Assembly: GCF_003977685.1 (NCBI RefSeq)
Contig: NZ_RYZH01000005.1
Span: 107,730-171,729 of the forward strand
Reading direction: 5' to 3'
From: Tautonia sociabilis
GTDB taxonomy: Bacteria > Planctomycetota > Planctomycetia > Isosphaerales > Isosphaeraceae
DNA length: 64,000 nt
The notes beneath the pieces were generated by a model that saw only the letters and a program-made list of their open reading frames with translations, did no database searches and was not told the origin of the DNA. The translations under genes and the position numbers were made by a program. Positions 17,746 to 18,606 of this stretch are shown piece by piece (position 1 is the stretch's first letter; every line of letters starts with the position of its first letter).

Positions 17746-18606
17746 ATGATGGATCGGATCGGGCCCGCCGGGCTGGCGGGATTCCTGGCCATCGCCTGGG
17801 CGGGAGCCTGCTCGGAAGGGCAAGTCGGGGGCTCGCCCTCCGCGCCGGCCGTCCCGGCTCCGGCCGCCGAGCCCAACGCGCAGGACACCCTCGAGGACGA
17901 GGACACCGGCCTGCCGGTCGGGGCCCTCGCCCCGAGCTTCTCGCTCAAGGATCAGGAGGGCAAGCAGCGCTCGCTCGACGAATTCCTGATCGAGGGGAAG
18001 ACCGTCGCCCTGGTCTTCTTCCGATCGGCCGACTGGTGACCGTTCTGCCAGCGGCAGCTGGTCCAGCTGCAACGCGACCTGGAGGCGATCGAAACCGCCG
18101 GCATCCAGGTCATTGGCATCAGTTATGATGACGTGGAGATCCTGAAGGGATTCGCCGAGCGATCGGGGATCACCTTCCCGCTGCTCTCCGACCCGGAGAG
18201 CGTCTCGATCGTGGCCGACAACGTCCTCAACGAGCAAGCCCAGGGACGGCTCAAGGGCATCCCTCGCCCCGGCACCTTCCTCCTGGACTCCGACGGCGTG
18301 ATCCGCACCAAGCTCTTCCTCGAAAGCAACAAGTCGACGATACTTCAACTATGGATCAATAATCCCGAGGGCTGGGCGGTCGCCTCGCCGCTGCTGGAGG
18401 CGCCGCCGGGCGAGGGCGTGGAGTCGACGGAAGTCCGGCACCTGGACTTCGAGGTCAAGGTACCCGCCTCCTCCTCCGGGACGACGACGATTCCGGCCGA
18501 TGCCCTTTACAACGTCTGCGAGCAGCGCCAGGGGGCATGCCTCTTCCTCCGGAAGGACATCCCGATCATCATCGAGGTCGAGGGCCGGGAGGAACCGGGC
18601 CGCTGA
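17746..18606 (+). CDS. Candidate selenoprotein: lipoprotein redoxin/AhpC-TSA family with UxxC active site (in-frame TGA)
   Basis: The frame runs from ATG 17746 (AGGAG 8 bases upstream) to 18606 with one internal TGA at 18037-18039. Read through, it gives 286 residues: a lipoprotein signal peptide with lipid Cys22 (WAGAC), a linker, then a peroxiredoxin-like fold (GALAPSFSLKDQEG, VALVFFRSADW-U-PFCQRQL, VIGISYDD, FPLLSD, RPGTFLLDSDGVI) and a C-terminal extension with YNVCEQRQGAC. The TGA is at residue 98, exactly where relatives have the first Cys of WCPFC, giving a UxxC motif with Cys101. Homology continues without a gap on both sides. A hairpin suited to be a SECIS follows 11 bases after the TGA. 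Probable role: periplasmic thiol or peroxide redox enzyme. Alternatives: nonsense mutation or sequencing error. No sel genes lie in the window. Confidence 0.82.
18051..18075 (+). promoter_or_regulatory. Candidate bacterial SECIS hairpin
   Basis: Starts 11 bases after the in-frame TGA (18037-18039), the same spacing as the minimal SECIS of E. coli fdhF. Stem: GCAGCT (18054-18059) pairs with AGCTGC (18065-18070); GCG (18051-18053) pairs with CGC (18073-18075) across a two-base AA bulge. The apical loop is GGTCC, beginning with the GGUC found in the fdhF loop that SelB contacts. The loop G lies about 20 bases from the TGA, within the range expected of bacterial SECIS elements. All of it is inside the coding frame, as required in bacteria. 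Confidence 0.7.

Follow-up and report, generated by a model that had tools for sequence, protein, structure and literature searches.

The window, that is, the whole 64,000-nucleotide stretch of contig NZ_RYZH01000005.1 of the planctomycete Tautonia sociabilis that was analysed, contains a frame of 286 codons whose features are collected in Table 1. A preliminary description had presented this frame as a candidate selenoprotein, a redoxin lipoprotein with a UxxC active site, split by one TGA and preceded by a good ribosome binding site. Direct reading of the window bears out both the binding site and the split frame: codon 98 is the only internal TGA, and the terminal stop, at 18604-18606, is likewise a TGA. 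Two Pfam domains, AhpC-TSA and Redoxin (PF08534, E 3.6e-17, residues 58-196), run across codon 98. An extracytoplasmic location of the protein is likely because of its apparent signal sequence, and lipid anchoring is possible. The lipoprotein signal proposed earlier is present in the window as a match to a PROSITE-type lipobox pattern, but the pattern is shared by only two of the nine orthologues of the order, the window and genome G041 of the same genus; it is absent from the seven others (one of which has no N-terminus), and its conservation stops at the genus.

Table 1. Features of the predicted selenoprotein gene of the window, with the second gene of the congeneric genome G041
Feature	Position	Strand	Remarks
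Likely ribosome binding site, AGGAG	17733..17737	+	8 nt 5' of the ATG; from direct sequence reading
Whole predicted selenoprotein frame	17746..18606	+	286 codons, then a TGA stop; the Sec-redoxin is joined to the tail of another TGA-containing gene family
Signal peptide, lipobox-like AGA-C22 (predicted lipoprotein)	17746..17811	+	Pattern match
AhpC-TSA/redoxin domain, residues 58-188	17917..18309	+	Pfam PF00578, E 5.1e-29
In-frame TGA, predicted Sec98	18037..18039	+	First residue of UPFC (residues 98-101)
Cys101	18046..18048	+	Second residue of the UxxC motif
Predicted bSECIS hairpin	18054..18070	+	7-bp stem GCAGCTG/CAGCTGC, loop GTC; begins 14 nt 3' of the TGA
Inferred fusion junction, after codon 193	18324..18325	+	Redoxin gene to second-gene tail, by comparison with G041 (L049)
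Tail from the C-terminal domain of the WUAGC-TPR family	18325..18603	+	Conserved Cys pair, residues 258 and 265
Second gene of G041	L049 4312-5730	-	WUAGC thioredoxin-like domain, TPR repeats, Cys-pair tail

The in-frame TGA and the means to decode it

A search with the window protein (P0001, in which the terminal TGA was included as a 287th residue) returned 383 proteins at E <= 0.001, the best 120 of which were aligned with the query. In the column of residue 98, and with the query itself written as C, Cys stands in 116 of the 121 rows, Trp in two and a gap in three, the gapped rows being the fragment that follows the TGA in the window itself and two proteins from a different family. The TGA accordingly falls on the first Cys of the active site, as had been described. 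The two proteins with Trp at this column, P0047 and P0051, read ADWWPYC; genome G047 has a TGA in the same context, so that both could be selenoprotein sequences to which code 4 was applied in translation.

Among the 45 genomes of the order, close orthologues (E <= 4e-33) occur in nine, each with exactly one internal stop, a TGA at the same codon. Random stop codons elsewhere in the gene, which in the preliminary description would have spoken against a selenoprotein, are absent from the matches of these nine close copies, two of which are imperfect in other ways: the N-terminal part of the G017 copy is out of frame, and the G014 copy loses its frame near a contig end. All nine genomes fall within the 30 of 45 in which SelB scores over the cut-off (chance 0.016, kinship not corrected). 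The class sample, 397 genomes for which a Cys homologue served as the query at E <= 1e-30, contains at least 21 genomes with a match, and of these 21, 20 have TGA at the codon and one (G468) has TGC. At least 3 of the 392 genomes of the phylum sample match at the stricter E <= 1e-35, all three with one TGA. The class and phylum counts are lower bounds, with 7 to 9 candidates scored per genome among the matches listed. The redoxin gene is thus patchy across Planctomycetia, but it nearly always carries the TGA where it is present. Sec homologues do exist in related genomes, and the earlier argument that a chance nonsense mutation would hardly hit this very codon gains weight from the 20 of 21 matching class genomes that share it. 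A single origin of Sec is not supported, as the tree needs seven label changes, at least three of them forced by starred branches.

The genome of the window organism (G000) is a draft of 6.76 Mb in 133 contigs, with a completeness of 94.8%. The search for selA, selB, tRNA-Sec and selD that the preliminary description had proposed recovered all four: SelA is encoded on contig C38 (E 2.9e-125), a SelB frame that scores over its cut-off lies directly upstream of selA, and a tRNA-Sec with a TCA anticodon reaches 65.9 bits against an Rfam threshold of 47. SelD (L011, C39:92439-93377) has one in-frame TGA at its active site, read NCAGUAGK, and is likely a selenoprotein itself. With these four components, UGA decoding is to be expected in the cell. 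A Sec-containing formate dehydrogenase (FdhA) was rejected as the keeper of the Sec trait in this genome: there are four matches, none over the cut-off and none with in-frame stops. As no formate dehydrogenase alpha subunit passes the cut-off, the trait may be maintained by SelD and by redox proteins of the envelope.

The predicted bSECIS hairpin

Bacterial SECIS elements have been modelled as hairpins with a loop of 3-9 nt carrying a G in one of its first two positions, a stem of 4-16 bp, a distance of 16-37 nt from the UGA and a minimum free energy <= -7.5 (PMC13188914). The hairpin that follows codon 98 in the window agrees with this model in all four respects, with a 3-nt loop that begins with G, 7 bp in the stem and 21 nt from TGA to loop, and the folding energy of a 44-nt stretch containing it is -14.2 kcal/mol. 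A perfect 7-bp stem with a 3-nt, G-containing loop at bSECIS spacing is found after 3 of the 1,116 TGA triplets of the window (both strands, this one included), and no such stem follows the terminal TGA of the frame. Under looser terms (6 bp, G-U pairs allowed, loops of 3-9 nt), as many as 296 of the 1,116 qualify, so that the hairpin alone says little.

In a set of 21 Sec rows (A2; 147 cells, the Cys form of G468 left out), 97.3% of the cells are paired, 18 of them with changes on both sides, and slid versions of the stem pair in only 4 to 45%. The covariation score is 0.302, against 0.152 in shuffles, and none of 500 shuffles scored as high; pairs with a change on both sides and further pair types do not exceed the shuffles, 89 of 500 and 498 of 500, respectively, being as high. 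The covarying changes are synonymous: Gln codons CAA/CAG on one arm track Leu codons TTG/CTG on the other (Fisher P 3e-5 and 8e-6, kinship not corrected). All seven pairs are formed in the window, and the exceptions in terms of Watson-Crick pairs are G741 with 4 of 7 and G579 and G560 with 6 of 7. Folding of lone sequences prefers another pairing in G014, in a 50-nt fold of G041 and in several farther rows, e.g. G630, G472, G741, G442 and G679.

For comparison with Cys forms, a contig scan based on P0122 gave 45 loci, mostly distant; its back-translated patterns cannot match a TGA at the motif. From these loci, eight rows with the motif RSADWC (L069-L075, L077) were used as controls. They keep 6, 4, 3, 3, 3, 5, 1 and 3 of the 7 pairs (mean 3.5), and they are weak controls because they are distant and because their second arm encodes other residues (e.g. 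QLIDL, not QLVQL). The TGC-bearing Cys form of G468 (L121) keeps 7 of 7 hairpin pairs and is possibly a recent Sec-to-Cys change. The hairpin likely acts as the bSECIS element of the window gene, and it adds to the case for Sec decoding a line of support that was absent from the preliminary description.

The probable fusion and the likely origin of the tail

The flanks of the TGA had been described as typical of the redoxin family. This holds up to codon 193 and fails for codons 194-286, which derive from another gene family: the redoxin match of the window protein stops at residue 193-196, and for residues 194-286 the match is to the end of a different family. The locus of G041 shows the arrangement from which the fusion can be understood, since between the same upstream and downstream genes it contains, in this order, a Sec-redoxin of 211 residues, 28 bp and a 472-residue second gene, whose motif WUAGC likewise includes an in-frame TGA. 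The upstream gene, whose product we take to resemble the S46 peptidases, has a dN/dS of 0.234 between the window and G041 over its last 650 codons. Of the G041 layout, 1,234 bp are missing in the window, where the redoxin gene continues up to and including the GAA at 18322-18324, followed by the second gene from its codon 383 (G041 numbers). The C-terminal third is thus likely what remains, after fusion, of a second TGA-containing gene, a feature overlooked earlier, and a deletion likely joined the two genes in frame in such a way that Sec98 and the Cys pair of the tail were kept. Elsewhere in the G000 assembly (94.8% complete) no other copy of the second gene was found; two further matches are weak, with 30% identity over the first 130 residues only. 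Among the best 120 of the 383 homologues, redoxin and tail are never covered together (best coverage 68%).

Some 40 bases at the junction (18325-18365) are AT-rich and have unusual codons in an otherwise GC-rich gene. In architecture the window fusion resembles Cys homologues of about 350 residues, such as P0031, P0033 and P0040, which combine a redoxin with a DsbD_N domain. Identity of the tail with DsbD_N (PF11412) is not established: 2 of 38 members match (best E 0.032), the hhalign probability is 2%, and the likeness is confined to a YxxC...C resemblance.

The family of the second gene (L049 and L140-L147, together with the database proteins P0100, P0053 and P0124-P0241) has an AhpC-TSA/TlpA-like domain, followed by TPR repeats and by a predicted beta domain at 349-467, for which pLDDT is mostly above 80; the model is poor in its N-terminal half, and a fold search with the protein returned mostly TPR matches. 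Among the best 120 of 1,837 homologues, the Cys pair of the C-terminal domain is present in 119. None of the same best 120 has Cys at the Sec column, and 119 of them start only beyond it, which makes these entries look like truncated TPR proteins. At least nine of the 397 class genomes match the first 159 residues at E <= 1e-25, and all nine have the TGA; in the search of the order, counts are likewise lower bounds, since no more than 36 candidates were scored in a genome that could have as many as 108. The arms and loop that follow the second-gene TGA, CGTGCC-GGTCT-GGCACG, are identical in eight of the nine, G725 differing by one base in the outermost pair. The copy of G630 (L143) has an extra TAG five codons 3' of the Sec codon and may be interrupted or contain a sequence error. 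The second gene belongs to a predicted Sec family.

Within the same 397 class genomes, the redoxin gene is present in at least 21, the second gene in at least nine and both in at least five, compared with an expected 0.48 (P 2.8e-5, kinship not corrected). The two adjoin in four of these five genomes, in tandem in G041 and divergently in G472, G478 and G630, while in G560 they lie on different contigs. Being neighbours in two arrangements, the two genes likely work together. Other neighbouring selenoprotein genes, e.g. Prx-like 1/AhpD-like (PMC13188914, PMC2398784), and selenoprotein domain fusions (PMC2398784) have been described, so that pairs and fusions are known in kind; the combination of redoxin and WUAGC-TPR protein is not among the pairs named in section 9 of either paper.

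Constraint on the fused copy was assessed with conservation columns computed with G014 left out. In the redoxin part, the window departs from none of the 43 columns conserved to at least 90% and from one of the 55 conserved to at least 80% (Y158D, Tyr158 being Asp), compared with none of 55 in G041. In the tail, 3 of 29 columns are changed in both the window and G041 at 90%, and 11 versus 9 of 44 at 80%. Between the window and G041, dN/dS is 0.334 for the redoxin domain, 0.49 for the first 195 codons and 0.88 for signal and linker, the neighbouring genes having 0.234 and 0.323. The corresponding value for the tail, 0.43-0.52, exceeds those of three pairs of intact second genes, both over the full length (0.15, 0.29 and 0.31) and over the last 82 codons (0.11, 0.31 and 0.40), whereas against G042 and G040 the tail has 0.25 and 0.19. 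Relative-rate tests with 13 outgroups gave chi2 values of 0 to 4.26, one of them above 3.84, and the branch of the window (0.29) is longer than that of G041 (0.18). GC3 is 0.89 and 0.86 in the two parts of the fusion and 0.89 in G041. An AlphaFold model of the fusion has a mean pLDDT of 81.5 and a pTM of 0.62, with the redoxin mostly above 90 and blocks of the tail between 61 and 93. The redoxin part of the fused protein is 19 residues short at its end, and of the eight strands predicted for the C-terminal domain of the partner the tail retains five; the missing redoxin end and the three lost strands may harm folding.

Interpretation and relation to known systems

Sec machinery, conserved TGA and covarying hairpin all support the candidate selenoprotein with a UxxC active site first put forward, and the window gene is very likely a UxxC redoxin selenoprotein of a known kind. 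Taken together, decoding of the UGA as Sec and in-frame fusion with the tail of the second gene form a reading in which considerable confidence can be placed; this confidence leaves room for the decay of the fused copy discussed below. The SelB/tRNA-Sec system of the genome would read codon 98 as selenocysteine with the hairpin serving as the bSECIS element, and the product would be a secreted, possibly lipid-anchored UPFC thiol:disulfide oxidoreductase. In UxxC proteins generally, the Sec attacks the substrate and the Cys resolves the selenenyl-sulfide; here Sec98 and Cys101 would take these parts, acting outside the cytoplasm on thiol/disulfide or peroxide substrates. The last 93 codons would have come from the neighbouring predicted selenoprotein gene by a genuine in-frame deletion rather than an assembly error, and the two selenoproteins would normally act as a pair. 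It is a tentative and, on balance, unlikely extension that planctomycetes have a two-selenoprotein relay outside the cytoplasm, made of the UPFC redoxin and of the WUAGC-TPR protein from an undescribed family that nearly always contains Sec, and that the two are fused here into a new working enzyme in which the Cys pair of the tail serves Sec98.

The alternatives differ in how much of this they leave standing. A dead gene with an ordinary nonsense mutation at codon 98 would agree with the meaning of TGA in the standard code and with its use as the terminal stop of the frame, but this reading is highly improbable given the same TGA in 20 of the 21 matching class genomes, the complete Sec machinery and the covarying hairpin. 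Still more far-fetched is a reading of the TGA as another residue, such as Trp, under a different code; the two database homologues with Trp at the Sec column, themselves perhaps TGA translated with code 4, can be cited for it, whereas the TGA also terminates the frame, a tRNA-Sec with a TCA anticodon is present and nearly all listed relatives have Cys. The fusion itself could be an assembly error in an organism that has the two-gene layout of G041. A fusion seen in one genome only, in a draft of 133 contigs and 94.8% completeness, and with redoxin and tail together in none of the best 120 of 383 homologues, invites this suspicion; yet the join sits inside a contig of 171,729 bases and keeps the frame, the printed flanks of the junction show no repeat by eye and the lost piece did not turn up elsewhere in the assembly, all of which makes an artefact improbable.

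A greater, though still minor, share of the probability goes to decay, in which UGA means Sec in the relatives but the window copy is a deteriorating remnant of the deletion, both selenoproteins having been lost in the species. The deletion did remove the redoxin end and most of the second gene, and Y158D, the AT-rich stretch at the junction and the somewhat high dN/dS of the tail against G041 all fit such decay. Set against it are the frame and Sec codon that remain intact across the junction, the unchanged near-invariant redoxin columns (0 of 43), the intact window hairpin (7 of 7 pairs), the GC3 of both parts beside that of G041, the low dN/dS of the tail against G042 and G040, and a model of the fusion that keeps high pLDDT in the redoxin and in much of the tail. 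Each of these points would hold equally after a very recent deletion; decay of the copy is rated as unlikely rather than remote.

As for known systems, the preferred reading of the window gene as a UxxC redoxin selenoprotein places it closest to the Prx-like thiol:disulfide oxidoreductase UxxC ("Prx-like 1", PF00578), with which it has in common the AhpC-TSA/redoxin fold, the UxxC motif and the existence of Cys homologues (PMC1088965, PMC2398784, PMC13188914), a likeness drawn from published descriptions. Unlike the published Prx-like 1, the redoxin of the window is predicted to be extracytoplasmic and possibly lipid-anchored, is patchy in Planctomycetia (at least 21 of 397 genomes) and lies beside a second TGA-containing gene in four of the five genomes with both, being fused to the tail of that gene in the window. 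A redoxin family protein UxxC (PF08534) with the same redoxin domain is listed in PMC13188914; compared by its table row alone, it may or may not represent the same subfamily. The Sec-peroxiredoxin PrxU (TxxU) shares the fold, whereas the motif of the window protein is UxxC, with Sec at the Thr/Ser position of a TxxC-type motif; against the NCBIfam PrxU model (NF040737) the window protein, in which TxxU is absent, scores 24.8 bits with a cut-off of 270, and against the SelL-related NF040769 42.1 bits with a cut-off of 120. In alignment with the G041 redoxin, AhpE and Aeropyrum PrxQ have Ser or Thr at the Sec position, and the Cys of their TxxC/SxxC motif, which we take to be peroxidatic, aligns with the second motif Cys. 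A structure search with the window model returned AhpE first, with Bcp/PrxQ and ResA lower. The second gene resembles the UGC-containing TlpA selenoproteins (WAxxUGC_long, NF041054) in having a TlpA/ResA-like domain with Sec; it differs from them in its motif WUAGC, in its score (56.2 bits, with a cut-off of 300) and in the TPR repeats and Cys-pair domain that follow.

The preliminary description had expected a notable addition to the known bacterial selenoproteins. The novelty is smaller than that, because UxxC Prx-like selenoproteins and planctomycete Sec machinery were already known: UxxC or otherwise Prx-like Sec oxidoreductases have been reported (PMC1088965, PMC2398784, PMC1794560, PMC5029168, PMC13188914), as have selenoproteins of the planctomycetes P1 and P2 and, for Isosphaera pallida and Gemmata obscuriglobus, the machinery for Sec (PMC4807772). 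Sec decoding had been described for planctomycetes there, and the selenoproteins named are FdhA and FmdB. Words beginning with "redoxin", "peroxiredoxin" or "AhpC" do not occur in the main text of PMC4807772, nor do words beginning with "redoxin" or "peroxiredoxin" in the main text of PMC12013277. The listed titles and abstract openings on planctomycete selenoproteins (a scope beyond which lie preprints, most subscription papers and supplements) name neither the redoxin nor its partner. As far as the literature was searched, what is new is the repeated occurrence of two TGA-containing redox genes side by side, a family predicted to contain Sec, of which 119 of the 120 nearest database entries (best 120 of 1,837) start downstream of the Sec codon, and the joining in nature of two TGA-containing redox genes into one frame. 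The gene pair offers a testable case of the use of Sec in the planctomycete cell envelope.
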